Assembly (NCBI GenBank): GCA_963693285.1
Contig: OY848920.1
Coordinates: 7,577,135-7,641,134 of the forward strand
Reading direction: 5' to 3'
Source: Xestospongia muta
Taxonomy: Eukaryota; Porifera; Demospongiae; Haplosclerida; Petrosiidae
DNA: 64,000 nucleotides
Made by a program: the position numbers and the translations under genes. Numbering within the stretch: position 1 is the stretch's first letter; each line of letters begins with the position of its first letter. The notes beneath the pieces were generated by a model. The model saw only the letters and a program-made list of their open reading frames with translations, did not search any database and had not been told where the DNA came from. Below, piece by piece: positions 6,500 through 60,236 of the stretch.

Positions 6500-6980
6500 A
6501 TGCTCCCCGCCCACCTCCCTGTCTCTCTCTTGTTTTCATGAGTGTACCTGGTACTACCTCTCCTTATGGACTAGATAAATAATGGTGTGTGGTTAATGTT
6601 ATCACTCCATTACATCCTTTGATAATGATATTGTTTTAATTACTAATTTATTATAAAATTGACAATTCATGTAACTAATAATTATCTAAGGTACAATATA
6701 TTTTTAATTCTTATATAGCATGAGCTATACTATATATAAAATTCATTTTATACAGTTCATAATTAGACAACCATACACCTATTGATGTGGGCAATGAACA
6801 ATTCAAAATATGTTATAATTAGTCTACAGAACATTCTACAACATTTCATTAGCAGCATGTTGTCTTGGCGACATGTTCATAGTATGTTAATTAGCGGTGT
6901 ACTTGAAGCTATATAATACTGTGGGAATGATACAATTCTATATTTCACCACTCGTTTCTGGACAGAGCTAGAAAAATCTT
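6500..6980. repeat. 5' flank shared with the previous paralogue (copy 2)
   Basis: Counterpart of 3160-3788: the same 'ccttatggactagataaat' block, the same 'aaaattgacaattcatgtaact' block and the same pre-start segment. Retention in both copies is consistent with a carried promoter, but I see no assignable element. Confidence 0.6.
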
Positions 6981-10490: not shown

Positions 10491-10908
10491 GATAAATTAA
10501 TCCGCATATGATAACATCTGATGCACATAGCAACCAATGAATGTTCGTTATTGATGGTTAAGTTAAGACATTGTTTTAACAAATAGTTCAATAATTTCTA
10601 AATGAGTATCTTCATCATTCTCACCTTGTAATCCAGTTAATGCAGACTATATTCACAATTGTAGTCTTGAAATCATCTTGTGAATGATTTTTTCTGCCCT
10701 TGATACGCGAACTTATAAAAATTTATCTTTGTTCAACAATGGCTAGTAAGTGTCTAGGTATCTTATTTATATAGGAAGAGAGTTATTAAAAAGCACACCC
10801 TTTAATGAATATTATTTTAATAAAACATTTTTAGGGTGCGCCCCTTCCACTCACGTCAATAACTAATACCCAGTGTCGCTCTGCTTCACCTCACAGCTAC
10901 ATTTAGTA

Positions 10909-16365: not shown

Positions 16366-19300
16366 AAGGTTCCATTGTTATTATCAGCTAAACCTCCTAA
16401 CTGATCTTTAATTCAACTCTAATACTGGAGAACACACTCGTAATCACAGTTAAGACATATACATTACTAAGAATATTATTATAATATTATCGGTACCTGT
16501 AGTTTCATGTGTAGACTCTTCTTGGCTAGATGTGATTTGAATTTCCTCAAGTACTTGATCAGTTACTGGGTTACAAGCCTCTGGTATGAATGTTAGATCT
16601 ACAACAATACAATGAAAAATCATTAATACCAGTTACCTTTCAAGCTATGTTTTAACACCTCAATCTGTTGGTCTCTCTCTCTTAGTTGTAAAGTCAATGA
16701 CGTTACTATTTCCTGCAGTGTTTCTAGCTCTTTCTGTCTCTCAGCAGACACCGAAAGCATATTCTTCTCAATAGCTTTATAAAAAACGAGAAGAATATTA
16801 ACCACAAATATTATGTAGATACTGATAGCATTACACTTGTGATTGCTGATGTATTAACTTACCTTCCTTTGTTTTCACAAGTGGTGTTAAATTTTTAATT
16901 GTCTTTTCTCTCATTTCTCTTGTTTCTATATAAAGGAACAATAGTTATAAATCAGATGTATCTTATATTAGATAGCTATTAAATAAAACAGTATCTGTAC
17001 ACAACATACGTTCATTTTGCCTGACAATAGATGATATTTGCATAGTCATCTTTTTCTGCATGGTTTGTTCTAGTTCTAATTGTCTTTTCAACTCCTTTGT
17101 GTTCTCTTCTACAATAGCTCTAACCTCCTATATATCAAGAAACAACACATGTAGTAACTGTTGTCTAACACTACTTACTACCTTGTCTCTTTGATGTTTA
17201 TCATAAATGGTACAATATCCAACTGTTAGTTGGATTGATCTTTTTTCTTCACTGATTCAAGTGTGTCCTAAGCTTTGGCAATAAGTGGCATTGTTAGACT
17301 GAGTGGAAAAAACAGGTCACAACAATAGAGTTGCCCTTTCTTATAACACATATTTGCACGTTCTCTTCAACTGATTCAGCAATAATATCTCGAATATCTT
17401 GCAATGTGTACCCAGTAGGATCCCAGTCTAAGATAAAAACAGCTGTCTCACATTTGAGAAGAGAAGGGGTTCTTGTTACTTAAAACATTTCACCTAGACA
17501 AAGGGAAGCTTTTGTTTTTTCACAAAATGACTGACATCGTCTTTGTACGTTTGTATATGCGTCTCAGCTTCTTTGATGTCAAAACATTCCACGATACCCT
17601 CATGACAATTGATATTAATCAATGTACAATGATTTCTCACAACTGTTAGTATGTCGTCAATAGATTCAGTGCTGTCTATTTCAGATTGAAGATGAGAGTA
17701 ACTATCTTCATAAATAGTTTCAGTTCCTCCAGATGTGGAGGGTTTTCTTTCATACCTTTTCGAATTTTACTAAAGGCTAATGCAAACTTCCTTTTAATAG
17801 AGCCAAATATAGAGTCTAACTTGCGAGGAATTGAAACGCCTTTTGTCAATGAAGTTTCATCTACAAAAGAAATTGGAACTGTTAGACCTTTAGTTAATGA
17901 TTATTGGCTCTCGAGTGACAATAATTTATCTAATGTTTGATTTAATGAAATATACCCTAACATATATAATACCTACCTTCAATAACTGTAATAACACTAG
18001 GTTGTACTTCTACAGCATCATCTTCAAGTAATACTCTCTCTCTCTATAAAAATGATTTTTACATAAAAATTATTATAATAACTAGAATTTTTATACTTAC
18101 CACAATCCTTTAAGATAGCATTGGCACATGGAACATTGCTAGTAATCTTTAACAGTACATTAGAAAACACCTCCAGGTGATGGTAGTTGACATGCACAGC
18201 ATGTCGTACAGCTTTTAACACAACAAAAGATGCTTCTTTTTTGGAATGAGATTTTGCAGTAGTTTTCACATTAAATAATGTTGTCTGTGAAAGAACTCTC
18301 TCTCCACAAAGTAATTCTGCTACTCTAATGGGATACTGAAGAGACTGAGAGAGAGTACCATAATGACAACGTAAAATGTCACTGGGCATAGAAGCTTGGA
18401 CTAGAAATAGAATTTAATAAGTATATTTCAACTATTATACATATACCATTAGAATCAGATGATGCTTCCAAGTCAAGCCTTTCTTTTTTTGGTTTTAAGT
18501 CCTCATTGGTTATCTCATTGTCTTTTCATAGTCGCTTTCTTATATTTGATGGACTTAGCTCTGTCATGTCATGAGATTGCTAAGCAAAAACATAAATGTT
18601 GATTTTATGAACAAAATTGTTGCTATCAACCTGATATTCCAAGTCTTCCTTTGTACAATCAGATTCTATACCCTCCATTGAGTCACTAATAGCTTGATAT
18701 TGATGACTAATATGACCTGTCATTGCTATCTCTTGAACTACTGTCATCTGATCATTTGGACACCTTTGAACTAAGAAAAATAGGTAATTGTACAGTAGGT
18801 TAGTGGTGAGTGAAAATAATACCATATTCACAGATAATTCTTTCAGCTAGCATTTTGGTCTCTTCAAACGTGGATAGTACTGTTGCTAATGCTTTCAATT
18901 TCTTATGATCTAACGATACAGATGTGTATATAGCAGATAATAGAGTTGCCTTTTTCTCATCTAAACTTCCTTCTAACGTCTCTATCTTATCAAGTGCTGC
19001 TTTGTTGATACATCTCTTACTAAATAAGAGCTGGGACACTTTTACAGGATTGATCAGAGACTGTGATAGTGTATCAGCGTGGCACTGAAATATACTAGTT
19101 GCTTCAGTAGTCAGATACTAAAGGTAAGCTCTTAACAACAAGTACTATGTACACACTTGTTCTCTCTTGTTTATAGAGTCTGAGTTGAAACAATTGTTAG
19201 AAGCAAGTACTAAAATGAACAGAGCAAAGATTTTACAGATAGAACAGTTAACAAATACCATCAAGGAAAAAGAAAGTGAGATGTTAATAATGTACACACT

Positions 19301-19796
19301 ATTGTATTAATGAGATATTCCATAGTCTTTGAGAAGGAGTTATTGTCAGTGTCTGTTGAGAGACAAGGAGAGATAGAGACACCATAATAAGAACAGTATA
19401 CAATCCACAAACAAACTAGTATTATAGCATTTATAATTAGATGTACATACAAAGATTATTGTACTAACTACCTGGGAGGTTACAGGATTTTCTCAATGTC
19501 AACTCATATTCATGGGCAACAGTGATTTCTTCAATGACCTCCTACTTTAAAGCATCTACCACTTGTCTTCTTGTAGCATGAGGGTTGGTGTCTAACCACA
19601 ATTCGAACATCCTTGTTGTTTTGTAGGTAGAATCTTCTGGTAACTTTTGAATATCATCTCGCAACTTCTTAGGATCTAGTTTTAATAAGATTCCTAATTG
19701 GTACCATTTACTACCAATACGAATATGTTCACAAAGTTCATTAAGTGTTGGTTTTTCTTCTAAAATCTCCTCGAAAGATACATTTCTTGTAGCCAT
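16366..19796 (-). pseudogene. Decayed death-fold (DD-CARD-CARD-coiled coil) gene
   Basis: This is a minus-strand paralogue of the gene at 20291. Recognisable blocks are: death-domain exon 19796-19472 (start MATRNVSFEEILEEKPTL); first CARD-like exon about 19115-18823; exon 18775-18632 (VQRCPNDQM...); a basic-cluster exon near 18550-18447; second CARD-like exon about 18404-18101; the conserved-domain exon 17800-17187; coiled-coil exons to 16620; an exon around 16609-16497. Breaks: in-frame TAG directly after the death-domain helix ...VVDALK (about 19539-19541), a TGA in the basic exon (about 18529-18531), an internal shift in the conserved domain, and a TAA in the exon near 16410. No LRR exon follows. 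The extra + strand exon relics at 19165-19385 lie inside it. Confidence 0.8.
19165..19385 (+). pseudogene. Opposite-strand coiled-coil exon relics inside the decayed gene
   Basis: After a 'tttatag', + strand 19178-19280 reads ESELKQLLEASTKMNRAKI then QIEQLTNTIKEKESE, a heptad-like coiled coil. A second block from about 19327 reads FEKELLSVSVERQGEIET, which matches the EKNILSVSAERQKELET exon of the intact gene. Both are oriented opposite to the surrounding minus-strand pseudogene, so a piece of another family member was inserted or inverted between its death-domain and CARD-like exons. Confidence 0.7.
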
Positions 19797-20290: not shown

Positions 20291-23200
20291 ATGACTACAA
20301 GAAATCGCTCTTTTGAGAAGTTATTAGAAGAAAAACCAACACTTGATGAATTATGTGAACATATACGTATTGGTGATAAATGGTACCAGTTTGGAATTCT
20401 GCTTAAACTTGATTCCAAGAAGTTGAATGATATTCATAGACGACCTTATGATTCCACTTACAACACTTTAAAAATGTTTCAGTTGTGGTTAAACACCAAC
20501 CCTCATGCTACCAGAAGACAAATTATAGATGCTTTAAGGAAAGAAGTCATTGAAGAAAACACTATTGCTCATGAATATGAGCTGGTAGTATTAAGACAAA
20601 GTTGCATCTCTGCTGGTGAGTAAACTGGGTTGATGAGCTACTGTGTGTCATTTTTTTATTACAGGAATGGACTCCTCAGCTACTGAAGCAATTATTATTC
20701 TTTGGCACCATAAGGACACGCTATCACAGTCTCTAATCAAACCTGTAAAAGTGTCCCAGCTCTTATTCAGTGAGAGATGTATCAGCGAAGCAACACTTGA
20801 TCATCTGGAGACTATAGAGGGTAGTCTAGATGAGAAGAGGACAACCTTGTTATCTGCTATACATACAGCAGTATCTTCAGATCATAAAATGTTGAAAGTA
20901 TTAGCTACAATACTTTCCAAATTTGAAGAGACAAAAATGCTATCTGAAAAAATTATTTCAGAATATAGTGAGAAGTCAATTTAGTAATTTTATAATTATG
21001 TCTACTTCATTGATAGCTCAAAAGTTTTCAGACGACCAAATTGTGGCAAATATTCAAGATGATAGAATCGTTTTAAGTCATATGAATCATGAAGATCATG
21101 CCAGTGACATTTTACGTTGTCATTATGGCGCTCTCTCTCAATCTCTTCAATATCCTATTAGAGTAGCAGAGGTGCTCTGTGGAGAGAGGGTTATTTCAAA
21201 AGCAACATTGTCTATTATAAGGAACACTGCAGAATCTCATTCTGAAGCAGAAGCATTGTTTGTTCTGTTAAGAGCTATACGTCGTGCTGTACATAGTAAA
21301 TATAGTAATCTGCTAGTATTTGCTAGTGTACTGTTAAAACTTACTAGCAATGTGCCATGTGCTAAGGATGTGATAAAGGATTATGGTTAGTACATATGAT
21401 TTATAATCATAACACTAATATTGATATAGAGAAAGCATTTAATAAAGAAGAAATCTCAGAGGCACACTCACTTAATAGTGTTGTAGATAGTGAAGGTATA
21501 TTATAATACATTAAGATCGTGATGTTATTGAGTAGATTAGATTATTCACTGACTACTGAATCAATTGATAGCAGTTCAACTTCAATTCAAGGTAATAGAT
21601 ACATTTAAATTGATAAATTGTCATTGACTGATCATTTATTAGATCATACATTACCTACAGGTTTAATCAACAACAGTTTAGCCTCAAATCAAGGTTAGTA
21701 GTGCAAGAATATAGGAGAAATATTCATCATTCTTAATTGCAGATAATGCGTTAAAAGAAGTTCCAATTCCTCGAAGGTTTGGGCCTATTTTTGGGTCAAT
21801 TAAAAGTGAATATGCAATAGCCTTCAGTAATATCCGAGAAGCTATCAACAAAACACCTCCACCTCTGGATACATTGAAGCAGTTTCTTAGAGATGGTTAC
21901 TCTCACCTTAAGTCTGAAATAGCTCATTCTAACTCCATCGATGATGTTCTAGATGTTGTGAATGATCATTGTACACTGATCAATATCAGTTGTTTGGAGG
22001 GAATTGTGAAGCGATTCAAAATTAAAGAAGCTGACACACATATTCAAGCATATAAAAATGTCATTCACTTATTTTGCAAGAATACGAGAGCTTCTCTTTG
22101 TCTAAACAAAAACTTCAAAGGCACAAACACTCCTTCTCTTCTACAATGTGAGACAGCTGTTTTTGTCTTGAATTGGAATCCTAAAGATTGTACGTTGGAA
22201 GATATTCAAGATATCCTTTCAGAGTCACTTGAAAGAGATGTGGAGATACGTCATTTAGCAAAAGGGAATTCCATTATTGTTACTTGTTTTATCCCACTAA
22301 GTTTAGTAACCACACTTATTGCCAAAGCTCAGGAGACGCTTGACTTATTGAAGAGGAAAGGATTACTTAAGCTTTCGGTTGGTCACTGTACCATTTATGA
22401 TCATAAAAGAGACAAGGTAAGAGATAAGTAGTATTAGACAACAGTTACTACATGTGTTGTTTATTGATATATAGGAGGTTACAGCTATTGTAGAAGAGAA
22501 CACAAAGGAGTTGAAAAGACAATTAGAACTAGAACAAACCATGCGGAAAAAGATGACTATGCAAATATCATCTATTATCAGGCAAAATGAAGGTATACTC
22601 TGTACAAATATTGTTTATATTTAATAGCTATCTATTATAAGATATATGTGATTTATAAGTTAATGTTCCTTTGTGTAGAAACAAGAGAAAGTAAAGAAAA
22701 GACAATTGAACATTTGACATCACTTGTGAAAACAAAGGAAGGTAAATTAATATAACAACATCACAAGAGTAATGCTGTCAGTATTTACGCAATATTTGTG
22801 ATCAATTTTCTTCTCATTTTATATAAAGCTATTGAGAAGAATATACTATCAGTGTCTGCTGAGAGGCAGAAAGAACTAGAGACACAACAGGAAATAGTAA
22901 CGTCATTGACTTTACAGCTCAGAGAGAGAGACCAACAGATCAAGAAGTTAAAGCAGAGCTTGAAAGGTAACTGGTATTACTCTCTTCTCATTATATGTCA
23001 TTGTTACTAGATCTAGCATTCTTACCAAAGCATTGTAAACCAAAGACTGATGAAGGACTTAAGGTAAACCAGTCACATCCTAGTCAGGAAGAGACATTAT
23101 ATATTAAAGAAACTACAGGTATTTTAATACATTATATGTAACTATTGATGTATGTACTAATTTAGACACTCACGAGATATTAGAAATGAACGATCAGATA

Positions 23201-26200
23201 AAGGAATCAGCTAAATCAGATAATAAAGATGACAGCTTGTTTTTGTCTCAAAGTAGGTATTATAAAAACTATAACATAATGATAAATTTGATAAGGACTA
23301 AACACACTATGTTCTTTACTATAACAAAACGTATAGGTAATTTGATTTGGTTTGTCTATATAAACTTGTGTTTTGTTAGTTGATTGTGCGTTTTGATAGT
23401 TAATTGTGTCGTTATGATAGATATATGTAATCTTCAAACCACAAACCCATGTCAGGGACATTACATTCTAAAGACAAAAAGATAATATAAATTATATTAC
23501 TATGAATATATTTATATATAGAGTCTCCAGTATCAGATGTCATATTAAAGGATTCTAATGATGTTTCAGAGGATACAGTAACAAACAAAGGTATGCTTAC
23601 TTGTTATGATATAGTCTTAAAATAGTTTGGGTTCTAAATAATATTAATTATATAATGTTTGCTAGTATTATTTTATTTATTGTTATTGTATGTGATTGTT
23701 AATGATACATACACATTGACTACTTAAACCATTGGATCAAATAAATTTGAATAAAATTTTTAATGTGGTCACTATATAACTGATTAAAGTTATAGTTATT
23801 TAGGAAATTAGTTTTTAACATTGCTTATCGTAGCTAAGTCTCTGATCTTTGATTTTGATTTTACCTATTTTCCTATGATCAATATTCATCAAGATCTTTA
23901 GCTTTTTGGTATTAATAAAGTACATGGAGTTGACCAAACCATAAAAATTAAAATAATCAGAGCTTCACAAAAAAAGCTACATAAATATCACTCTAACATG
24001 TCAAGCAGCTGTGACAAATTTCATACATGATTGGATTTTGACCCACTTGGCCAATTTTTTGGCTGTTGTTTGCCACGCTTATCTTAGTCAACAATGACAT
24101 AATTATCACATACTATTTGCTTCTATTTTTAATTCAAACATTATAAAAAATTGGCCAATCAAATTTTCTGCATTTCAGACTGATCCAATTCAAGATTTTG
24201 CTATTCCATTTTGTGTATAAGCCATCTTTAAAGGTTTTGGAATTTGCAGATTTACAGATTTGCAGACTTTTAGGTTTGCCGATTGCAGAATTGCATATTT
24301 TCAAATTACATAATTAAAGGTTTAAAGATTTGTAGACAGATTTGTAGAATGAATTTTTGCAAATTCACAGAAATATACATTTGAAGATTTACAGAATTAA
24401 AGAGTTATAGATTTACTACACAGTTTCATAAATTTGTATTTACATATTTACAGATTTGCAGATTTACAAATTCACAACTTTACAAACTGGAGAATATGCT
24501 CAATATATTCTATTAGGTTGAATTATGGATTTGAATGTTTTTTTCAGTAGTAAATTCTCCATTTAATTAAGTCATATACAGTATATAGAAATTACATATA
24601 TGCAAGATATTGTTTTTGCAAGAGCAGATATGACTTGATTAAATGTGAGCTGATTTAGGAAAAGGACCACTTCTGTTAAAATGTCTCAAACATTCAGTTG
24701 TTATGTACACAACCATATGTTTTCAATGAATGTTTACTAAGTTATATTTCAGTTTAATAACAATAGATAACTTGAAATGTAAAATTTAGTTATCATTTCA
24801 TTTTTAAAAAATGCTTACGTACACTCAAATGTTTATAATGGTTTGATAGAAATGGTCCCTTTTTACAAATCAGGTCACATATTGTTGTATTTTCTAACTC
24901 ATCAAGGACCAAAAATGATGTTAAGGAAGTACTCGCTGTTTGTGGTGTTAAAAAGATAATTTTTTTTCAGATTTTCTTAATTCTATATTAATATATTTCA
25001 ATGTTTTTGTCCATTTCTCTTTTGACTGGACAACAATACCTAGTGATTTGATTGCTATGCATTTTTTGCAGATATAAGGTTAAATTTTCTTAAATATTCT
25101 CTTTGTGGGTTTTAGCCAATACTGATGTCATAACGTTAGCAGAGTATGGTGAACTTAAACTGCTTTGTCCCCAGACTTTGTAATTAAAGTATTCTATTAA
25201 TGACATGAAGTATACTGAGTTATCTGGGGTTTTACTTCTCGAAAATTAGCAAAATAGTATCAAAAAATAAAAAAATTATCAATCCTTTTCGTTGAAAGGT
25301 ACTCCTTCTTTATCTTGATTTTTTGGCCTTGATGAGTTAGATAGTATAATGATAATTCAGTCAACACTGCTAGTGTACTATGATTTCACAAAGAAATTAT
25401 ACCGTATATGAGTAAATTAAATGGAGATTTATTACTGAAAATAACCTAAACCATATATTGACCAATTTTTAAAGTTGTCAATTTATAAATCTGCAATTCT
25501 CCATATCTGTAAAATTGCCCTAAATTTCATAATGGAATAGCAGTCTGAAATGTTGAAATGTAGATTGGCCACTTTTTATTGTTTTATTAGTTTTTAGTTT
25601 CAATTCATTCTTTCCTCTATCAGTTTCAAAAGTTACATATTTACTAAAACAATTACTAATAATGTCACATCCTGCTAGTATCATTAACAAACTCAGCACC
25701 TGCCTATGTATCAATTTAACAAGTACTAATAATCTATTATTGCAGAAAATAGCTTTGTTTTCAAGTATTCATATCATTGTTACTAACATTATCATATTGT
25801 AACTGTTCATCAGCAGTCATTAACATTCAAAATTGTCTCTTCCATTAAACAGCAAACATGACCTTTACTATGTTTACTATGTACATATATGATGTTTTGT
25901 TGCCATAGTAACCACAGTTAGTAAACAGTAATGGCTTCCCTTCTTCTTCCCTGTGTTATCTGTAACTATTTGTATGTTATACTATATACTAACTCTGTTT
26001 TATAATAGGAGACACTGGAAATGTTCAGTGGAATGATGATGACAATAGTGTTAAACTCGACTCACCAAGTCTAGTACAATGTGAAAACGTTACAAATAAA
26101 TTAATACAAGAGCAGCAAACAGGAAAAGAGTGGAATATCATTCTATGGAAATCATCTCCTGAAAGTACTGCAGTTATTATAAGCAATCTTAATAAATGTG

Positions 26201-26805
26201 TTGTGAGGAGACTTGATATAGAGGGTACTTCATTGGACAGTAGGTGTGTATCCATATTATCAGAGATACTAAAAACTAATAAAACAATAAAAAGACTAGA
26301 GCTGCGGTTCTCTTCGCTTACTGGTGGTATCAAACAAGTCAGTGATAGTCTCTTTGAAAATAAAACACTCAAAAAATTAGTATTGTCTAATGTTACTGGT
26401 ATCACAGATGAAGATATGTCTCACTTATCAAACATGTTGGGAAATAATACAAATTTAAAAGAGTTTCAACTCCGCCACTGTAACATTACTGATAACGGTG
26501 TCCAGTATATCTATAAAGGACTTATTAAAAACAAAACACTGACTGAGGTCGACATCAGAGGTAATAGTGAGATTACTTCAGTTAGTACCAGTACAATAGC
26601 AGATTTAATACAAACAACTACATCACTGAAAGAACTACGTCTTCACAACACTTCACTGAAAGATGACGATATCGAGACAATATGTACATCACTAAATAAA
26701 ACTACTACGATACAGAAACTTGTCGTCTCAAGACAACATGAAGAATATTGTAAGACGTTAGACAGTTATCAAGATATTAAAGACAGGCTTCAGTTCTGGT
26801 TGTAG
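20291..26805 (+). CDS. Death domain-CARD-CARD-coiled coil-LRR protein without NACHT (14 exons)
   Basis: Exons by GT-AG and frame: 20291-20615, 20665-20967, 21017-21385, 21430-21495, 21541-21591, 21643-21693, 21743-22416, 22475-22592, 22679-22741, 22829-22966, 23011-23118, 23166-23252, 23522-23590, 26009-26805; total 3,219 nt, 1,072 codons, no internal stop. Start chosen by match to the neighbour (MTTRN/MATRN). Domains: death domain ~10-100 (RIGDKWYQFGILLKLDSKKL); CARD-like bundles ~120-209 and ~240-332; short linkers; an unnamed conserved domain ~389-612 (HCTLINISCLEGIV, GNSIIVTCF); coiled coils ~613-720, then a polar linker; ribonuclease-inhibitor-type LRRs ~830-1072. This resembles NLR ends with the NACHT ATPase missing. 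A cytosolic sensor/adaptor role in death or innate signalling is inferred. The large last intron holds a foldback element. Confidence 0.85.
24141..25582. mobile_element. About 1.4-kb foldback element in the last intron
   Basis: Left end 24141-24182 and right end 25541-25582 are imperfect inverted repeats (shared 'ttggccaatc' and 'catttcagactg' on the left, complemented on the right). A nested pair lies inside: 24893-24915 ('tctaactcatcaaggacc') against 25319-25341 ('ggccttgatgagttaga'). At 24240-24490 there is a patch of degenerate short repeats of the 'agatttgcagatttacag' type. No transposase is visible, so it is a non-autonomous foldback element. Exact ends and target-site duplication were not determined. 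Confidence 0.65.
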
Positions 26806-27379
26806 TAAGTAGTTTGTTTATTATTTCTCACTTACTTATATTTTCACATTTTTATTTTTAAATTTATCTTCTTTTATTAGCAATTTCATTCTTTAATAAA
26901 GCTACTAGACAATTAAACTAGAGCAGTTTTGCTCAACATTACTTTTCTAACATCACATTTCTTTGATCACTCATAGTTGCAATTATAAGCCTATGTATAT
27001 ATAAATAATATTATCTGTGGGTGTGTTTTAGTGGGACAAGATTTTGATTGCAGACTTTGAGTTTCTGAAGAATATATTAAAAGAACTACACAATTTTCTT
27101 AACTACCCAAAGTAGTCATTAGACCAAAAATAAAATACTGCTCAATTAGGTAGAGAGTGAGGATTTCATTCAAGATGTGTACTAACAATGCAGTAAAATA
27201 GTTTTCAAATATTAAGATTGTGATTGGGTACTTTTGTGTGGCTACTATGTAGGAATATCCATACTGCCATTACTACTTTGGCCTTGTTTGAGATGTTTCA
27301 CTGCCATCACTACTTTTTAAATAACAGTTTTAGAATTTTTTTTTTAATTTATATGTCTTATTTTTATTTCAATTTTAAA
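26806..27379. other. 3' flank of the death-fold gene
   Basis: Contains 'aataaag' near 26896, a candidate poly(A) signal, and a segment 'agcagttttgctcaacatt' repeated at 30707-30725. No coding block. Confidence 0.5.
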
Positions 27380-27545
27380 ATTACTTATATCTATCTGTCT
27401 ATTGTGATATGGATGGTAGTCACTGTGATGGCAAAGTAGGCTGGATAAGAGTGGGCTACCTCAACATGAGTGAATCTGGTACATTTCCTGGAATGACATT
27501 GCAACAATATAACAACATGGGCCATGCATTAAATTTCACTTGATT
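27380..27545 (+). pseudogene. Fibrinogen-like core fragment
   Basis: Reads LSVYCDMDGSHCDGKVGWIRVGYLNMSESG then MTLQQYNNMGHAL, the core of the fibrinogen-like family, with no start, signal or C-terminal half. The proline/cysteine segment (CP.GL) is shortened. It lies 0.45 kb upstream of an intact paralogue. Confidence 0.75.
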
Positions 27546-27994
27546 TTTTTATTTTGAATTTTAGTTAATTAATTATAATTAATTAACTTAATAGATGTGC
27601 TTATATAGGTCAGATGGAAACTAAGTCTATGTATGAGTTCTTTCCATCAACTGTAAGGAAAACAAGGTATATTAGATGATTTAGTGAAGATAGTTGTCAC
27701 AATGAACGTCGTAGTTCTAGCATGTGCACTACCATTATTTTTCTTGAAGTATAAGTGATTGTGAACTCAGTTCTCTTCAAGCAAGATTCCAAGTGTACTC
27801 CAATGCTATAATTGACTAATTGATAGATGAGGCCGATAATAGAAAAATAGAGTTGCCTTGATCATTTTATCTAAGACTGACATTTAATTATAAATTCAAT
27901 TAATAGCGCATAATGAATATTAATTAGGTGAAAATTTGTCCATCACCAATAACTTCTTACTGTTGCTAAGCTCGCGCTACAACTAGATTTAACA
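27546..27994. other. 5' flank of fibrinogen-like gene
   Basis: AT-rich, with an AT palindrome 'ttaattaattataattaatt' near 27566. No assignable promoter motif. Confidence 0.4.
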
Positions 27995-29161
27995 ATGACG
28001 CCTCTTTTTGTTAAGTGTTTTCTTTTATTTGGAGCGCTCATTTCTTGGTGTTATGGAGATGATGTCCAAAACTATCCACTTCAAAATACAACTATTACAG
28101 ATGTACCAGTTAAGGTCAATCAAGGTAACTTTCAATGTGCTCAAAAGAGACTTTCTGAATCCTTAAATGTGGTCTCCAATGTTGTCCCTCCAATTGAGAC
28201 TTGTGTTGCCTGTAATGAAAAGGAGTATGGCAAGAATGACGTGTTTACAAACTTTTATTCGTCACAACATTGTGTTGAAAAGTCTTATGAATGTGAAAAC
28301 ATTACTGATCCTGGGAAAAAATTGATGGGACAATTAGGAGCTATCTCCGAGTTTATTAACTCATATCTAACTACATGTCTTGATATCAAACAGAAAAATA
28401 ACCTTTCTCTCTCAGGCTATTACACAATACGAGCTCCTAATGGTTCTCTTATATCAGTATACTGTGACATGGAGGGAAGTAACTGCGATGGTAAAGGAGG
28501 TTGGATGAGAGTAGGCTACCTCAACATGAGTGAACCTAATGCTACCTGTCCTTCTGGACTAACTCTACGAGAATTTAACAACACAGAACATGGGCTTTGT
28601 GGTCGACCTATGTCTTCATCTGTAATTTACTCTGCTCATGGCATTCATTACAATAAAGTCTGTGGTCAAATAAAAGGTTATCAGTTTGGCTCACCAGATG
28701 GATTTCCACCTTTGGCTGGTCATCATGGCAAACCAAACATTGAGAACTGTAATACATATGTTGATGGTGTTACTATTACTTATGGTAGTAATCCTCGTAA
28801 ACACATTTGGACCTACGCTTGTGGTGTAAGGGAATATACTAATGATCAATATTCATGTCCATGTAATAATGGAAGTTCTGGCACAACATCACCTAATTTT
28901 GTAGGTAAGGAATACTATTGTGAATCTGGATTGCCTTATGGGAATGTACATCCTGTTTTGTATTCTAATGACACTTTGTGGGATGGTCAACAATGTGGAG
29001 GATTAGAAGGACCATGTTGTACTAATCCAAAGATGCCATGGTTTATAAAGACTCTTTCAGAAACCACAACTAAAGATATTGAATTAAGAATGTGTGGAAT
29101 TGATTACCTATCAAATACTGAAGATACTCCTCTGGATATTATTGAACTTTATATTCGCTAA
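27995..29161 (+). CDS. Secreted fibrinogen-like protein, long N-terminal type (paralogue 4)
   Basis: 388 codons, single exon, ATG at 27995 with signal peptide (FVKCFLLFGALISWCYG). Closest to the gene at 10909: the same DDVQNYPLQNTTITDVPVKV region, the same Cys-bearing N-terminal segment, then SGYYTIRAPNGSLISVYCD and GGWMRVGYLNMSEP. The C-terminal half is complete (CGRPMSSS, VCGQIKGYQFG, YVDGVTITYGSNPRKHIWTY, CPCNNGSSG, YYCESG, LWDGQQCGGLEGPCC, PLDIIELYIR). Many N-x-S/T sites. A secreted or matrix role is inferred. It has not acquired the 566-bp tail array seen at the 10909 gene, though its immediate 3' flank is homologous for about 60 bp. Confidence 0.87.
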   Translation: MTPLFVKCFLLFGALISWCYGDDVQNYPLQNTTITDVPVKVNQGNFQCAQKRLSESLNVVSNVVPPIETCVACNEKEYGKNDVFTNFYSSQHCVEKSYECENITDPGKKLMGQLGAISEFINSYLTTCLDIKQKNNLSLSGYYTIRAPNGSLISVYCDMEGSNCDGKGGWMRVGYLNMSEPNATCPSGLTLREFNNTEHGLCGRPMSSSVIYSAHGIHYNKVCGQIKGYQFGSPDGFPPLAGHHGKPNIENCNTYVDGVTITYGSNPRKHIWTYACGVREYTNDQYSCPCNNGSSGTTSPNFVGKEYYCESGLPYGNVHPVLYSNDTLWDGQQCGGLEGPCCTNPKMPWFIKTLSETTTKDIELRMCGIDYLSNTEDTPLDIIELYIR

Positions 29162-29877
29162 CTGCTTTTCGTGCAGATTTTTCATGCTTTTATGTTTATT
29201 TACTTACTTTATTGTTATTAATTATTAATGTTGGCATTGTATGTACTTATAAACATTGCTGAAGTTTTCTGAAGACCCTTTTTATTAATAGATGTTAGTT
29301 GTTATTATATTCAGGTAGTATATTTGTCCATCTCAATAGTTGCATACTACATATTTAATATAATTAATTGCACTAAATATACATACCTATGTATTAATTA
29401 AACATAACAGGCATTCCAAAGCAATCTTGTGACTCTTTTGTGTGCACAGTTAATAATGTTGATTTATCAATTATTGTTCAATGTAATGACATCTTGACCT
29501 AAATATATAAATTATGTCATTCTATTGTTCAATCATATGAGCCACTTCAAAATAATTTAGAAAGTAGCATTAAGATGTTAGTAATGGTATCACTATCCAC
29601 TCTGACCTTTCAGAAGACTTATTGTCCTGGCAACATAATAACAGAATTGATAAAAATTGTCATCAGATCTGTAAAAACCTTCCACTTTGCTGTTTTTGAA
29701 GAAAGAACTAGACCTAGCTGTCAGGTACGATATTTAAAATATAAACCTGCTATATATATATATATATATATAAATTGACTGACTTCAATTTAATTGTATA
29801 TGGATAAGTAAATGTAACACTATTTAGTTATTTATTTTATTATGAACTTGACTGTATGTACATAAGCAATAATATAT

Positions 29878-29966
29878 TAGTAATCAAAACAGTTTTATGA
29901 TTACTTTTGATCAAAATAAGGTTACTACATGCTCTTGTATAACCATATATTGGTTAAATCAACCAT
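29878..29966. repeat. Dispersed repeat, same family as 42080-42185
   Basis: 'tagtaatcaaaacag', 'attacttttgatcaaaataa' and 'aaccatatattggttaaatc' occur in the same order and spacing as at 42080-42185 and, in pieces, around 14333-14620. Probably a MITE family. Confidence 0.7.
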
Positions 29967-30084
29967 GTATTAACAATAAATAAACAATGTACAGTATGTA
30001 GGTATATCCTGTTATGTATATCACTGTAAACATTAATTAGTATATTATCTTAACAATTAATATGTAGTTTACATGCATCGTTAC

Positions 30085-30185
30085 TTCGGAATTTAGTGAA
30101 TTACTCATTTATAATTTGTCGGTATGTTATCCAAAGAAAAAATTTATACAGTGAGTAATTCACATGAATTTTAGATTCCAAAGCA
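30085..30185. repeat. About 100-bp foldback element
   Basis: Left arm 'ggaatttagtgaattactca' and right arm 'tgagtaattcacatgaatt' ... 'ttcc' are inverted. A related element with the same arms (tgaattatttacag / tgagtaattcaca) lies at about 39478-39570. Non-coding, MITE-like. Confidence 0.65.
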
Positions 30186-30387
30186 ATGCAAGCATGTAAG
30201 CTAATAATTAGTAATTAAAATAACATCAATTTTTACAATAATATAGATTTTATGCATGCTGACAGCTTTATACATATTAACGTCAAATTAAGTGGTTGAT
30301 TTAACCAACATATAAGTATACATATGACAAATAATTCGATGCAAAAGAGTAAATATGATGTTCAGTATTGATTACTAAAGTGCCACG

Positions 30388-30472
30388 GAAGCCGAGGACG
30401 GACATTCCAATTCCTATTTCGAATTTCATTCAAACGGGGTTATACGGAGTTGGAATATTCGCCCTCGGCTTC
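30388..30472. repeat. GC-richer 85-bp foldback
   Basis: Arms 'gaagccgaggacggacattc' and 'gaatattcgccctcggcttc' are inverted with a few mismatches. It stands out as much richer in C+G than its surroundings, which suggests an inserted small element. Confidence 0.75.
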
Positions 30473-30504
30473 TGTACTACACTATACGGAAACAATATTT
30501 ATCA

Positions 30505-30740
30505 AGAAGACATATAGAGTTTATGGAGAAGTTAGAGAGTTATCAAGTTATTAAAGTCACTTGTGTTTAATTAATAGTAAGTAGTTTGTTCTTTATTCTT
30601 AATCTGTCTTCGCCCACACTTTTAATTACGCTTTTAATTTCTCGTGACTTTTTCTTCTTTTATTACCAATTCTTGTCCATAACAAAATTGGTAAACAATT
30701 AAAATAGAACAGTTTTGCTCAACATTCACTTATCTAATGT
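30505..30740 (+). pseudogene. Relic of the 3' end and 3' flank of a death-fold/LRR gene
   Basis: 'ggagaagttagagagttatcaag' followed by a 'tagtaagtagtttgtt' block matches the last codons and 3' flank of the gene ending at 26805. The later 'acaattaaa..agagcagttttgctcaacatt' stretch (26910-26942) is repeated at 30693-30725. No LRR codons remain upstream, so only the tail of a former copy is left. Confidence 0.65.
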
Positions 30741-31718
30741 TGCACGTTTTTACTCTCTCACAGCTTGTCACTTGGTGCCTGTCAAACGCATGATCTTTAA
30801 ATAGGACAATAATTTGGACACAATAACTTGAGACTCCTGCAACAACTGTATGGGGTTTTCCAGCTGTGATTATAACTGAGAATGAAAGTGTCTTAGGATT
30901 GACAGTAGATTGAAATATCAATAGAAATTTTGATTATAATCTAGACAGACACTGGAGCTGAGGTGACAAGACTTAATAGTTGGACCTATATACAAGTTGG
31001 ACAAGTAATGTCCCTGTCTTCTCTTTCTAGTCAATATGAAATTATTATTACCATTACAGAAAATGACCAACAGCTTATGGATCATCATTAATGAAAGTAT
31101 TTGCAGAGGATGTTCAGCTTTAGATATATCATCTTTAGTAACTCACAGTAGTTTTCTGAGGAGGAAATTCTCTCTCTTCAAATACATTAAACACTAGTAT
31201 TACTCTTATGTTAAGTGTGCATAGTAACTTCAGTACTAATGCTTCAAGGACTAAAGTGACATTTTGGCAGCTTGACCTTCTAAGGTAATATTGTTAACTG
31301 AAACATCCTTCTTAGGAGGTGGCCTCTATCATTATTTGCATTATACTGGCAGGTATTGATTATGAGGCAAGGGAAATTATCAAATGTAAAGGTTTAAAAA
31401 TATGTTTATTTCCTTTGAAGTTCAGGAGTGCTCTCTTCAAGGAACTTATAGTTTTTCTTTCCCTCAGGTAATGGAGATTATTTTATCTCTATTATCAGAG
31501 GAATCAAAATGAAGACTAAGAATGTTGGTATTAAAGCTGACCAGCTATGAGAAAGACAAAAAAGGCCAAATGCTGAAGTTAAAGAGAAGTGCTGAGTAAA
31601 ACTGATCTATTTCATCAACCAGTTTTGTTAAAGAATTTTTTTGAATAAAAGAAATAGTCAAGAGAAGTTTAAAGAGAAAATACAAGTGAGCAAAAAAGAA
31701 CAAACAACAAAGTACTCA
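30741..31718. other. Intergenic, nothing recognised
   Basis: No family match, splice-flanked exon or repeat I can support. It is the 3' flank of the minus-strand gene ending at 31719. Confidence 0.4.
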
Positions 31719-34700
31719 TTAATACATGAACTTAAGTCTGTTTTTAATAACTTCATAACTGTCTGACTTCTTAATACATGCTTCATGTTGTCTTGCTAAG
31801 TACAGTTCCTGGATTGTAATGTTTTTAGCAAGTGTTGTACATACGGTCTTGATATCATCATCATTCAATGAAATATTGTGGAGACGTAGTCTTTTCAGTG
31901 ATGTAGTTGTTTTTATTAGATTTGCTATTGCACTGGTACTAACTGAAGTGATTTGATGATTACCGCCAATGTTTAACGTAGTTAGTCTTTGGTTTTTAGT
32001 AAGACCTTCACAGATATATTGAACACCATTATCAGTGATGTTACAGTTGTACAGCCATAGTTCTTTTAAAGTTGTATTACGAGCTAACATACCAGACATG
32101 TGAGACATACAGTCATCTGTGATACCAGTAATATTATACAACCGTAACTTCTCAAGTGTCATATTATGAGAGAGACTATCACTGACTTGTTTGATACCAC
32201 CGGTAAGTAAGGAGGAGTATAACCATAGTTTCTTTATAGTTTTATTAGCTTTTAGTATCTCTGAAAATATAGATTGACACTTACTGTCCAATGGAGTGTT
32301 GAATAAATAAAGACTCCACACTGTACACTTATTAAGATTGTTTATAATAACTGTAGTACTTTCAGGAGATGACGAGTGCAGTTCTAAACTCCATTCTTTT
32401 CCTGTTTGTTGTTCTTTTATTAATTTGTTCATAACATTTTCACTTTGTATGACATTGGGTTCAGTAAGACTAACATTATTAATATCATCGTTCCACTGAA
32501 TACTTCCAATGTCTCCTGTTATAAGACAGAGTTAGTATATAGTATAGTACACACATAGTAATATATTATATTATAAGACATTACAATACACATAACGATG
32601 TGGCTGCACTGAAATATATAGCTTCACAGTCTAGTGTTTCATGCATAGTTTTCTGCTTTGAACCATGAAATGTTCAAAAATGTTTCTAAATCAAGCTTAA
32701 TAGCTAATATAAATGTGTCATGATTATCATTGCAATAAAACCTCAAACCAACCTAAGCACTGAGTATAATACTATAATAAGTTGTTTTGTACCATCTTCA
32801 GGCCGTAGCCAATTGAGTTTCAACACAGTTGGCATATCATAACATCTATGACGTTTAATTGGGTGTAGCTCGGAAAACCAACCACTCCAATAGTGTGTTA
32901 GCATTATAGTATAAGTCATTTCTGTTGGCTAGTACATGCATATATAGTAATGTTTTAAATCATGTGCTAATATGCATTTATTTACATAATTTCACTCCAT
33001 TGTGGTTAGCAATAATTAAGCAACAGACAAACTTGAACCACTAATGCACACATAACAACCAATGAGGCACTATTGTAAGCTCTGCTATGATTACAGAGAC
33101 TGATTCTGCTTTAAAGATTATAACTAGTTTGGCTCCCTGTCTTATAATCTAGTGAGAACTTCTCAAAACTCAGTGCATCTCTTTCATATTAACATTAATA
33201 ACAACTGAGATCTTTTTCTCAATTATAATCTTATTTACATTGACTAATGATAGTGGGTTACTAGTACATACCTTCTTCATCTGGCTCTTTACCCTTACCA
33301 TGATTAGAATCCTTTAATACATCATCTGATACTGGAGACTCTATACAAATTTAGATGTATCACAGTAAATTTAATAAAAATCATAACTATTATTCAATAT
33401 TATGGTCTGAGTAATATGACTATAATCAACACATGATTCTGATAATCTGTGTGGGTAATAACAATACACTTATAAATAAAATTGCGCCAAGTGCTTTAAT
33501 TATTCACTCTAATGTTTAAATAACTCTCCTAATTAGCACTCATTTTCACTAAAATACAGTCACTCATGTGGTTGAATTGACCAGCTTGTATAAGTGTCAA
33601 ATCTCATAACACTGAATTTAGCAACTAACATAAAATTTGATTGATTTCACATAATCACTTTCTATCATATCCTTATTATATGCACTATATATGATACTAA
33701 CACTGAAGAGTATCCACTTAATATATACAAAGTTACAATTATAATATAACTTACTTGGACGAGGTAAGGAACTCTCATTTTTATCATCAGCTTTTAACTC
33801 ATTTTTCAACTCTGATATAAATTAAGGCTTTATTAGTAGCCATATCATTTTTTACTACCTGTAGTTTCACTGATAAATGATGTGGATTCTTGTTGATTAG
33901 ACTTTGTTTGGGTATCTTCTGGTTCTTGATCAGTTAGTGGTTTATGAGCTTTTGGTATGAACACTAGATCTAGTAACAATGACATATAATAGAGAAATGA
34001 CAAATACCAGTTACCTTTTAAGCTCTGTCTTAATGCCTCAAGCTGCTCATTTCTCTCTCTTAATCGTAACATCAATGACGTTATTACTTCCCGCAGTGTC
34101 TCCAACTCATTTTGTCTCTCTACATACACTGACTGTATCTGTTCTTTAAAAACTAAATAATTATAAAATATTATTTATGTACTGAAACATCAGTGACACA
34201 GACTATGTTAGTGATAACTGTTGTATCAATAATACCTTCCTTCCTTTTCAGAAGTGATGTCAAATGTTTGATTCCTTTTTCTTTCATTTGTTTTCTTTCT
34301 ACATAGAAACATTGAATGTTAAATCAAATATACTATATAATAGACAGCTATTATATACACTGGGATAATTTCCTGCATGTACAAATACCTTCACATTGTT
34401 GGATAATAGATGACACTTGCAAAGTCATCTTTTTACAGATGGTTTGTCGTGCTTCCAGTTGACATCTCAACTCTTTTGTCTTTTCTTCTACAATAGTTCT
34501 AATCTCCTATATATCAGTAAACAAAACATGTAATAACTATTGTTTAATACCATTCATGTCTTACCTTGTCTCTTTGATGTTTATTATAAATAGTGCAATA
34601 ACCTATTGTTAACTTAATCACACCCAACTGCTTCAACAAATCAAGATTATCTTTTGCTGTCATCAGCAAAAGATCAATTAAACTTTGTGGAGCATAGCAG

Positions 34701-36119
34701 GTAACAATGATGGAGTTGCCTTCATTTACTGCTCTAACTTGTACTGACTTTGCCAAACCTTTAAAAGCTTTTGATAGTAATCCTTTGATGTCAATGAGAG
34801 TACATTTGTCAGCCTCCCAATCCAAAATGAACACAATAGTCTCACAAATGAGTAGATGAGAAGATGAAGACATCATGAAGCTTTGATTACAGCATACATC
34901 AGCTTTGATCCTCTCACAAAATGCATCAACAGTAGTGTTGTAGTTTGTGATGTGTTCTTTAGCTTCTGTAATGTCATATTGATCAACAATACCTTCTAAA
35001 CAACAAATGTTAATAATAGTACATTTATCTTGTACAATCTCTATAACATCATTAAAAGATTCTGCTGTCACCAACAGAGGTCTTAGTTCTCTGAAACACA
35101 TCCGAAGGTATGTTTTAAGGTCTTGCAATGAAGGGATACCCCTAGCAATAAGTGGAGCAACAGTGTAAAAAAGTTTACCAAATTTCATTCTGATTTGATC
35201 AAAATCATATTGAAAAGTCGGTTGGAGAATGAAAAAAGTTTGATCTATTAATAAAAAAATAAGAATTTACAGATATATGTGTTAGTACTTACCATACTCT
35301 TTGAGAATATCTTTAGCAATAGGTACTGTTTGTTCAGACTTTAATAATGTGCAAGCGAATGATTTCAATTTGCTAGGATCTTCAGACACAGTAGTATGTA
35401 GTGCCCTCAAAGGACCATCACCTAGTACACCTCCCAATTTATTTACTTCATCTAATGTCTCCTTAGAGATCACTCTCTCTGTATATAATGTCTGAACAAT
35501 CTCCATAGGAAGAGTAAGTGGGGAGAGCCTGTCAGATTGTTTCTGTAACATTTGACAAGCTGGAATGGATAAGAGTCCCAAGAAAAAATAATGAATATTA
35601 ATATTATAAATGTAGAACACTAATTTATACCTATATCCAAATTAACTGCTTTGGATTTTTGTTCAAATTCCACTTTTTTATCTTCTCGTTTTCTTTTTCT
35701 TGAACTTGGTATGTTATTGTCATCTATTAATTATTTAGTTTTACTTTAATAGATCTGATGAACACAATGTTCTACTTACCTCTAGTTAAGTATTCACGTA
35801 TTACAGTAGCTACCTTGACATTATTAACGATAGGACCCTCAACGGCAATAATTGCTGCCTCCCAGGTAACAAGATGGGACTCGGTAGTAGTTAGCCAGCT
35901 CTCAATCACTTGATCAAGTTTGTAAGTATTACTTAGCTGACAACTTATTAAACCATTTAAAACACTCTGAGAAACCTCAAATGACAAACCAATCTCATAC
36001 CACTTGTCATTAATATCAGCTAATAGATTGAGTAGTTCATATTTAGTAGGAGAAATACCTGAAAAATTAATACATTAAAAAAACAAACAATTCTATCATG
36101 CCTCACGTTGAAGTGCCAT
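31719..36119 (-). CDS. Death domain-CARD-coiled coil-LRR protein without NACHT (12 exons)
   Basis: Minus-strand exons: 36119-36107, 36058-35780, 35723-35631, 35559-35293, 35244-34565, 34506-34389, 34298-34236, 34143-34015, 33969-33859, 33811-33755, 33340-33272, 32515-31719; total 2,676 nt, 891 codons, one frame, GT-AG junctions. Exon 1 is only 13 nt (ATG + 10), an unusual but frame-consistent start (MALQ-R). Death domain ~5-95 (INDKWYEIGLSF); exon 3 carries a basic cluster SRKRKREDKK that looks like a nuclear localisation signal; one CARD-like bundle ~135-217; the unnamed conserved domain ~218-444; coiled coils ~445-540; LRRs ~650-891. Paralogue of the gene at 20291, but with one CARD-like module instead of two. 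Signalling role inferred. Confidence 0.85.
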
Positions 36120-37325: not shown

Positions 37326-37756
37326 ATTACTAATCACAATCTTAACAGCTGTATACTGGTGTGTGGAGGTGGAGATGAAGGTAGAGAGAACAGTTGCACT
37401 CAAGTAATGATAATTATAGACATGCCACTGATGCCAGTATAGTTACATTACATGTAGTTATTGGCCACATCCATATGATTGTTTAAATTCCATTAGGTAT
37501 TTTGCAATGTTCTATACAAGAAAATCAACTTCACAGAGATATGTCATCATGAAATTTTGAGGGAGTGTCTAACAATGAATCATAATAATAAACAAGGAAA
37601 TGATGAAAGGATAATTAATATTGCCTTAGTTTATTGATATGGTTTAATTGTACCAAGCCATAAATGTCTGTAATTAAGACAATTGGCGTATAGAATATCA
37701 TAAATAAAAAGCATCGACTATAAGTTATCACAGTCAGTGAAAGATACACAACTGTG

Positions 37757-38827
37757 ATGACAGCGCTAATTGTGAAAGTAATTTTCTTCAGTTGCCTGTT
37801 TGCAGGTCTATTAATAGTGTCTTGTGAGGCCTCCATTAGTACTGATTGTATGGTTGACTGTATTAGTCTACTAACTCCACGTCCTCCCTCACTCTATGAA
37901 CAGTACTGTTGTCTCTCTAGTAACAGTGGAAAGAAGTTTAAATTGAAGGAAAGCAATGGAGTCAAGTTCATATTATGTCCACCATCAGTACCTTCATCTT
38001 GTATCAAACATACCTTTCTATATAATTCCTGCATAGCTCTACTACAAGCCTTCCCTACTGCTACATCAGGATTTTACAGCCTCACTTTAAGTAATGGTAG
38101 TATTGTTAATGTCTATTGTGATATGGAGGGTAGTAACTGTGATGGTAAAGGAGGCTGGATGAGAGTAGGCTATCTCAACATGAGTGAACCTAATGCTACA
38201 TGTCCACCTGGACTAACACTTCAACAATATAACAACATAGATCATGGAGTTTGTGGTCTTTCTAATTATTCAATATTGGCATCAACATTCTTTTCCTCTG
38301 GAGGAAATAATTACAGTGAGGTCTGTGGTCAAATAAGAGGTTATCAGTACAAATCACCAGATGCATTTCCGCCCTTGGTTGGTAATACTGGTATTCCAAA
38401 CATTGAGAACTGTAGCACATATGTTGATGGTGTTACTATTACTTATGGTAGTAATCCTCGTAAACATATCTGGACTTATGCTTGTGGTTTAAGTGAAGGT
38501 CATTTTTGGAGGCATCTTTTATGTCCATGTAATACTTTGAGTTCCAACACAGCATCACCTAGTTTTATTGGTAATGATAGTTACTGTGAATCTGGATTAC
38601 CTACAGGAATAGCTTGGCAGGATGTTCTATATGCTAGTGATCCATTGTGGGATGGACAACAATGTAACGGAAATGAAGGACCATGTTGTACTAACTCTAA
38701 TATGCCATGGTTTATAAAGACACTTTCAGAGACTACAACTGACAATATTGAATTACGAGTGTGTTCAAGTCAAGGTCATCTCGATGAAGATACTCCAGTA
38801 GATATTATTAAACTTTACATTCGTTAA
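37757..38827 (+). CDS. Secreted fibrinogen-like protein, chimaeric type (paralogue 5)
   Basis: 356 codons, single exon. The ATG at 37757 begins a signal peptide (IVKVIFFSCLFAGLLIVSC). The N-terminal third matches the short-type genes at 3789/6981 (CMVDCISLLTPRPPSLYEQY; TFLYNSCIALLQAFPTATSG). The C-terminal half matches the long-type genes at 10909/27995 (YVDGVTITYGSNPRKHIWTY; LWDGQQCNGNEGPCC). The switch falls roughly between residues 150 and 210. All core Cys motifs are present except that CCTNPKMPW is CCTNSNMPW, and the tail is VDIIKLYIR. Likely a recombinant paralogue; secreted role inferred. Confidence 0.87.
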   Translation: MTALIVKVIFFSCLFAGLLIVSCEASISTDCMVDCISLLTPRPPSLYEQYCCLSSNSGKKFKLKESNGVKFILCPPSVPSSCIKHTFLYNSCIALLQAFPTATSGFYSLTLSNGSIVNVYCDMEGSNCDGKGGWMRVGYLNMSEPNATCPPGLTLQQYNNIDHGVCGLSNYSILASTFFSSGGNNYSEVCGQIRGYQYKSPDAFPPLVGNTGIPNIENCSTYVDGVTITYGSNPRKHIWTYACGLSEGHFWRHLLCPCNTLSSNTASPSFIGNDSYCESGLPTGIAWQDVLYASDPLWDGQQCNGNEGPCCTNSNMPWFIKTLSETTTDNIELRVCSSQGHLDEDTPVDIIKLYIR

Positions 38828-41877: not shown

Positions 41878-42017
41878 TGATTGCTCTTGAGGATGTATCA
41901 CTACTCAATGTTAAATATTGTCCATCACATGACTAACACCATAAAGTGGGTGGACACCTACACAGTACAGAGTGAATTTATATTGATATTGTGAAGATTC
42001 TTTAACTAAAACTCAAT

Positions 42018-49798: not shown

Positions 49799-49816
49799 AT
49801 TAAGTGCTCTGTTCAC

Positions 49817-52625: not shown

Positions 52626-52734
52626 GAAATGAATTTTGAAAAGGAAAATTTAGTTTGTATATAGTTATATATAAAAATATTTTGAAATGACTTGTATATT
52701 TATTAATGTGTGATTTGCTGCTTTAAATGTAAGT

Positions 52735-54878: not shown

Positions 54879-54899
54879 TTTTACCCTTTAGTCTTGAAG

Positions 54900-60218: not shown

Positions 60219-60236
60219 ATTAAGTGCTCTGTTCAC

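Follow-up and report, generated by a model that had tools for sequence, protein, structure and literature searches.

The two genes described here lie in a 64,000-nucleotide stretch of Xestospongia muta DNA (contig OY848920.1, positions 7,577,135 to 7,641,134), which is referred to as the window and to which all coordinates refer. We put at roughly 78% the probability that both belong to a large family of immune-type receptors, expanded in this lineage, that combine death-fold domains with leucine-rich repeats (LRRs), carry no recognizable nucleoside triphosphatase (NTPase), and are not NOD-like receptors (NLRs), existing in parallel to the NLRs of this genome. As far as sequence comparison indicates, the family layout is a death domain, one or more helical death-fold-like domains, a domain of ~225 residues resembling the TRADD-N domain of the NCOA6 clade, a coiled coil, and LRRs; the receptors are probably intracellular. 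This reading is carried by the order of the domains, seen by homology and in the splice models, by the absence of a NACHT match, by a constrained signaling half, and by an excess of amino acid replacement on the face of the LRRs. The architecture class is already published for the sponge Amphimedon in the parts of PMC8195603 consulted, and the window genes fit that class; new here is quantitative evidence that the class behaves as a variable receptor repertoire.

Gene 1 (20291-26805 +) possesses 13 exons and gene 2 (36119-31719 -) 12, both having been modeled by GT-AG splicing rules. The original prediction had given open frames of 1,072 and 891 codons; both genes do splice open, the lengths now being 1,047 and 889 residues, respectively, owing to other splice choices. 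All introns in the two models are GT-AG, 21 of the 23 being in phase 1 and two in phase 0. No signal peptide or membrane span was seen by eye in either spliced protein. Pfam matches to LRR_6 or LRR_4 above the cut-off are found in the last exon of both genes, confirming the LRRs read earlier. The N-terminal death domain was recovered by Pfam in gene 1 (6.3e-8), but that of gene 2 alone gives no Pfam Death match and is recognized through a family profile, built from 13 death-domain exons with those of gene 1 and gene 2 among them, which matches FADD death domains at 7.9e-7. FADD is itself a small adaptor composed of a DED and a death domain; lacking LRRs, it differs from the window genes.

The genome searched comprises 158 Mb in 28 contigs. 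No hidden Markov model (HMM) backs the earlier assignment of CARD to the helical exons: none of 13 family members matches a Pfam CARD model, the profile of these exons retrieves no CARD chain from the PDB, and the 52 CARD matches found genome-wide include none in the window. A Pfam scan of both genes likewise left the CARD-like exons and the ~225-residue domain without a match over the cut-off. The claim of coiled coils held best for gene 2 residues 445-547, where, judged by heptad periodicity, 2 of 5,000 shuffles reach the observed value; in four shorter segments the periodicity is weaker (62, 64, 172, and 262 of 5,000), the gene 1 segments being those at 62 and 262.

The genes had been described as resembling an NLR from which the NACHT is missing. 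The layout underlying that description, namely death-fold and LRR without a NACHT and with the conserved domain and coiled coil in the middle, is upheld by the splice models and the NACHT searches. The genome yields 98 NACHT matches, all of them outside the window, and the Walker A motif (GxxxxGK[ST]) is absent from every sense-strand open reading frame (ORF) of at least 25 residues in both genes, in agreement with the reported lack of a Walker region. Nor is there any sign of a NACHT exon in the two large last introns, whose longest sense ORFs (81 and 61 residues) have no Pfam match. What goes too far is the picture of an NLR deprived of its NACHT: there is no sign of such a loss, and the middle domain is a distinct entity, for which a helical bundle and a ferredoxin-like domain with a link to NCOA6-clade TRADD-N are predicted.

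That an ancestral death-NACHT-LRR gene lost its NACHT or let it decay, leaving the ~225-residue domain as a remnant, is accordingly given very little credence. Such an ancestor would explain why both ends are laid out as in NLRs, and the genome does hold NACHT matches preceded by the death-domain exon types of the window: among the matches listed, by eye, and on the same strand, five of the 98 have a gene-2-type exon and one a gene-1-type exon no more than 2.1 kb upstream, while two weaker gene-2-type matches precede NACHT exons in loci L039 and L045. Against it stand the predicted fold, the sole P-loop name in the 50 fold rows shown being ABCA1 (aligned at 2137-2224); the top HMM link of the domain, which is NCOA6 TRADD-N; the absence of Walker A; and the finding that none of the 98 NACHT matches has the window's LRR exon type (among 144 LRR exons listed) within 8 kb downstream. 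Structure prediction, proposed at the outset as a check for a degenerate NACHT, yields a helical bundle followed by a βαββαβ ferredoxin-like domain that does not look like NACHT, and a degenerate NACHT is rejected on the fold, HMM, and motif evidence.

The receptor family and some NLRs seem, from sequence, to share a death-domain exon type, and perhaps have downstream partners in common. Among the 150 listed matches to the ~225-residue domain, two (L039 and L040) are followed on the same strand by a NACHT exon at most 8 kb away, both without the window's LRR exon type. Neighboring genes are suggested for L039, where similar death-domain exons stand separately in front of the domain exon and of the NACHT exon. 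L040 contains a 268-residue ORF (6643-7446 -, G000:C12) with a weak DED match (0.011) in its first half; a death-domain-like exon and a long NACHT ORF lie downstream of it on the same strand. A strand pattern with a GS turn is visible by eye in the second half of this 268-residue ORF, which may represent a TRADD-N-type domain in an NLR gene; homology of this DED-like exon with the ~225-residue domain was unsupported (hhalign Prob 0.1). The two death-domain exon types number 1,166 and 1,479 first-look candidates genome-wide (150 listed each), a very large expansion should the candidates hold up. In comparison with animal NLRs, the window genes share the N-terminal death-fold, the C-terminal LRR, the large expansion, and, for a few NACHT exons in this genome, the same death-domain types upstream; they differ in that no NACHT or other NTPase was found, in the LRR exon family, and in the TRADD-N-like domain and coiled coil at their center.

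The conserved ~225-residue domain noted originally is present in both genes (39-40% identical) and has at least 153 matches in the genome (634 first-look candidates). Counts for this domain and for the LRR exon cover the best-scored candidates only (150 and 144 matches listed, respectively), and are thus lower bounds skewed toward the window's own types. The domain is predicted to consist of a helical bundle and a ferredoxin-like domain tied to NCOA6-clade TRADD-N, which is its best HMM link albeit a sub-threshold one. A search with the full-length gene 2 protein (7,994 candidates sharing most words scored) returned nothing. A first fold prediction without an alignment was poor (pLDDT, the model's own confidence score, of 50), whereas AlphaFold2 with an alignment of 63 proteins, taken from 636 matched by the domain-exon profile (best 120 listed), returned the gene 2 domain at a mean pLDDT of 73.5. 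This model contains an RRM/ferredoxin-like sheet of four strands with two helices, as in TRADD-N, and all 65 sequences carry Ser177 where the turn between beta2 and beta3 is predicted. PF13820 (NCOA6_TRADD-N) matches 6 of 25 domain members at E<=1 (best 0.0066). When the whole genome was searched with it, all eight candidates fell in exons of this domain: two overlap listed domain exons and six match the domain by tblastn at 38-52% identity. Since such exons make up, by estimate, well under one percent of the genome, this coincidence is unlikely to be due to chance.

A series of results weighs against this identification. All eight PF13820 candidates are under the Pfam cut-off (13.7-17.1 versus 22.5 bits; E 0.4-4.2), and unrelated families equal or surpass it on single members, namely PF10862 (seven members, best 0.0015) and PF16454 (two members, best 0.00038), such that single-member PF13820 matches alone prove little. 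TRADD's own TRADD_N model (PF09034) finds nothing in this genome; domain profiles run against the PDB retrieve no TRADD chain, the matches obtained looking like chance (best E 0.052); and Foldseek with the domain model gives no match at E<=0.001. TRADD is absent from the 50 fold-match rows shown, in which a large number of unrelated ferredoxin-like folds score equally. Those rows that span both halves are initiation factor 2 alpha chains at a root-mean-square deviation of ~10 to 13, in a search that barely covered the helical half. Ser177 is preceded by Asn in at least 90% of sequences, with Gly before that, where a tiny residue is described for TRADD-N. For the helical half a bundle is predicted, DED not being among the families matched by the 25 domain members.

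The NCOA6-clade link could also be taken to indicate a family of nuclear or transcriptional adaptors nearer to NCOA6 in function, whose LRRs bind a protein partner and whose N-terminal domains assemble transcription or signaling complexes, and the basic stretch RKRKRED of gene 2 would suit such a role. Gene 1 lacks this stretch, however, and neither well over 100 domain copies nor a dN/dS (nonsynonymous to synonymous substitution ratio) of ~2 on the LRR face is expected of a housekeeping adaptor; we consider this explanation highly improbable.

Whether the LRR exon belongs to a separate gene was an early concern, which genomic pairing and unit order speak against. At least 144 matches to this exon (519 candidates) occur in the genome. 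Within 8 kb of the 150 listed domain matches, such an exon lies on the same strand downstream of 62 (median distance 2.5 kb; eight of the 62 beyond 5 kb) and on the opposite strand of none; the 31 cases in which a same-strand LRR exon stands upstream, again at up to 8 kb, are read as tandem neighbors. No NACHT match falls inside the 62 domain-LRR intervals. The exon order of the window recurs, whole or in large part, in the paralogous units of L043, L046, L047, and L048, which supports the LRR exon being part of the same gene. On these two grounds a separate LRR gene is rejected. The remaining 88 domain matches have no such LRR exon downstream among the matches listed, and some relatives (L049 and L050) differ there. 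The regions 3′ of the ~225-residue domain vary among L047, L049, and L050: between coiled coil and LRR, L050 carries a WW domain (2.8e-15) and a weak SH3 match, and L047 a weak PDZ match.

Pairwise Nei-Gojobori estimates, obtained with our own script from 21 genes having both domain exon and LRR exon, reveal very different constraints on the two. Nine of the 210 gene pairs were left out for undefined dS; in the remaining 201 the median dN/dS is 0.22 for the domain and 0.70 for the LRR, the latter being higher in every pair. dN exceeds dS for the LRR in 38 pairs and for the domain in none. In the LRR register the face positions are x3, x5, and x7 of each LxL motif, as in LRRs in general. At these positions in eight motifs (24 sites; 21 LRR exons, one duplicate, L062 = the second unit in L046, having been removed) dN/dS amounts to 1.95 over 210 pairs and 2.51 over 95 close pairs; the remaining LRR sites give 0.56 and 0.68, and dN at the buried L positions is 0.036. 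Mean entropy at the face sites is 2.12, a value reached by none of 10,000 random site sets, versus 0.61 elsewhere, and 15 of the 25 most variable LRR sites belong to the face set. When the set is shifted, mean entropy falls to 0.39-0.97 at ten shifts; it stays high at -2 and +2 (1.51 and 1.58), shifts at which two thirds of the face sites are reused. These figures must be read knowing that the gene pairs are not independent and that the face sites were placed by eye on the LxL motifs after the entropy profile had been seen. The concave face of the LRR is hypervariable, the pattern expected of a recognition surface.

Any variable recognition system would fit a diversifying LRR face and the clustering seen on contig C4, which holds 77 of the 150 listed domain matches and 127 of the 144 listed LRR exons. 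Sponges show allorecognition, and the LRR face might recognize other individuals or symbionts, making these self/non-self or symbiont-sorting receptors. The death-fold N-terminus, together with the lack by eye of a signal peptide or membrane span, points instead to intracellular signaling, and we regard this alternative as unlikely, though less so than the adaptor or the decayed NLR.

Domain and LRR exons of the receptor family seem to have only partly the same history. Among the 15 pairs with the lowest LRR dS (0.02-0.07), the domain dS is 0.62-0.90 in 11 and 0.04-0.12 in four; the L036 unit, paired over 5.1 kb, was retained in the dN and dS estimates, and the contrast persists without it (e.g. 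L021 or L022 vs L033). The domain tree shows well supported subfamilies, whereas the LRR tree is nearly star-like within its main clade (the L029 unit, with its LRR 5.8 kb away, was excluded from both). Across all genes, the tree distances of domain and LRR show only a weak correlation (Mantel r 0.30; 264 of 5,000 permutations reach it), and a stronger one within the 15 genes of the close LRR clade (r 0.63), from which a partly shared history follows. The domain data reject two LRR-tree groups (p 1e-45 and 4e-36). Weighing on the other side, these groups are weakly supported, and the LRR data reject just one of four domain-tree clades, marginally (p 0.0475; the others 0.112, 0.354, and 0.189). 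Homogenization of LRR exons across subfamilies by gene conversion or exchange is likely, albeit not proven.

A working model for these NTPase-free receptors can be proposed. The hypervariable concave face would bind a changing ligand, presumably microbial given the selection on it, and the coiled coil, as its periodicity hints, would hold or gather the chains, such that oligomerization might proceed without ATP. The TRADD-N-like domain, situated between the conserved signaling half and the variable LRR half, could act as the switch, a role proposed for TRADD-N generally in the parts of PMC8195603 consulted. Exposed death domains would then seed death-fold assembly and feed downstream adaptors; because the same death-domain exon types precede a few NACHT exons in close proximity, some NLRs may use these adaptors too. 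Duplication and diversifying selection acting on the LRR face would renew the repertoire, probably together with gene conversion or exchange that moves LRR exons from one subfamily to another.

We lean, by a small margin over even odds, toward a second variable receptor repertoire beside the NLRs. It would comprise at least 60 linked genes among the copies examined, with an NTPase-free TRADD-N and coiled-coil core in place of NACHT, strong diversifying selection on the recognition face of the LRR, and LRR exons swapped between subfamilies by conversion or exchange, so that specificities are recombined onto conserved signaling halves sharing death-domain exon types with true NLRs. If so, a lineage that branched off early among animals possesses many death-fold LRR receptors which signal with no NACHT switch, their recognition face diversifying as in classical variable immune receptors; ATP-independent assembly, and repertoire renewal through the exchange of exons, could then be tested in an animal that lacks adaptive immunity. 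NACHT-based surveys, such as the sponge NLR survey PMC12909245 (to judge from the parts consulted), would miss this receptor class.

TRADD and DEDD2, in the published material consulted, couple a TRADD-N-type domain to death-fold domains, as the window genes do. In the latter, both genes and the units of L043, L046, L047, and L048 display the layout of one to three death-like domains, a TRADD-N-like domain, and a variable C-terminus, the death domain being shown and the CARD-like exons matching no CARD model. TRADD and DEDD2 are adaptors without LRRs, unlike the window genes. The Amphimedon survey is the work of Kaur, Iyer, Burroughs, and Aravind. In the parts of it consulted (PMC8195603, 2021), 357 NCOA6-clade TRADD-N proteins are reported, most architectural types having one to three death-like domains and TRADD-N. 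The C-terminus that comes after these varies, the commonest forms being ankyrin repeats or an SH3 with LRRs behind it. Common to both sponges are hundreds of copies and the same class architecture; the window genes differ in having a coiled-coil segment and LRR, with SH3 not found. The main text of PMC8195603 uses "coiled" once, in another context, and the parts consulted give column entropies and no site-level selection on those LRRs. A literature search turned up no other description of this family, which does not prove that none exists.

Table 1. Exons of the two modeled genes and a broken third copy
Feature	Position	Strand	Evidence
Gene 1 exon 1: start codon and death domain	20291..20615	+	Pfam Death (PF00531) 6.3e-8; splice model
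Gene 1 exon 2: helical CARD-like domain, copy 1	20665..20967	+	39% vs gene 2 exon 4; CARD HMM: no match
Gene 1 exon 3: helical CARD-like domain, copy 2	21017..21385	+	Splice model, alignment; CARD HMM: no match
Gene 1 exon 4: short linker, tentative	21430..21495	+	Splice model only
Gene 1 exon 5: micro-exon, tentative	21661..21693	+	Splice model only
Gene 1 exon 6: ~225-residue domain (predicted helical bundle and TRADD-N-like ferredoxin-like domain)	21743..22416	+	39-40% identity to gene 2 exon 5; invariant Ser of predicted beta2-beta3 turn
Gene 1 exons 7-9: putative coiled-coil segment	22475-22592, 22679-22741, 22829-22966	+	Splice model, heptad periodicity
Gene 1 exons 10-12: linker	23017-23118, 23166-23252, 23522-23590	+	Splice model
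Gene 1 exon 13: LRR exon and stop	26009..26805	+	Pfam LRR_6 9.5e-10; 64% identity to gene 2 LRR exon
Gene 2 exon 1: start codon, tentative	36107..36119	-	Splice model only
Gene 2 exon 2: death domain, second type	35780..36058	-	Member of profile matching FADD 7.9e-7; alone, no Pfam Death match
Gene 2 exon 3: basic linker RKRKRED, possible nuclear signal	35631..35723	-	Sequence
Gene 2 exon 4: helical CARD-like domain	35293..35559	-	85% identity in L047; CARD HMM: no match
Gene 2 exon 5: ~225-residue domain; predicted ~8-118 helical, 134-216 ferredoxin-like (TRADD-N-like)	34565..35244	-	AlphaFold2 mean pLDDT 73.5, fold matches, PF13820 link
Gene 2 exons 6-8: putative coiled-coil segment	34389-34506, 34236-34298, 34015-34143	-	Splice model, heptad periodicity
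Gene 2 exons 9-11: linker	33859-33963, 33755-33811, 33272-33340	-	Splice model
Gene 2 exon 12: LRR exon and stop	31719..32515	-	Pfam LRR_4 3.7e-7, LRR_6 2e-6; concave-face hypervariability in family
Third, broken copy: death domain, two CARD-like exons, domain pieces, coiled-coil exons	16510..19796	-	Stop codons, broken frames

The third copy has no LRR exon match downstream on the minus strand within the window. Two further pieces of the ~225-residue domain are located at 1-159 - and 2345-2794 -, and a divergent LRR ORF is present near the window start (5257-5742 +).

Six long related ORFs (3684-4829 +, 6972-7997 +, 10867-12096 +, 27953-29161 +, 37724-38827 +, and 40699-41904 -) have a hydrophobic start and share a YCDMEG...GGWMRVGY stretch, which presumably resembles fibrinogen-type domains; the two of the six that were tested, at 27953 and 37724, have no Pfam match at E<=0.1. 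Ankyrin-repeat ORFs occupy 52090-54887 - (Ank_2 2e-19 in 54057-54887), and the ORF 52847-54148 has a match to Cas10-Cmr2_palm2 (2.7e-4) that is under the cut-off and probably due to chance. Two closely similar 900-residue ORFs (47120-49822 - and 57540-60242 -) are of the class C G protein-coupled receptor type, the former matching ANF_receptor (1.7e-66) and 7tm_3 (1.6e-47), and are resembled by a 266-residue ORF at 45772-46572 -.

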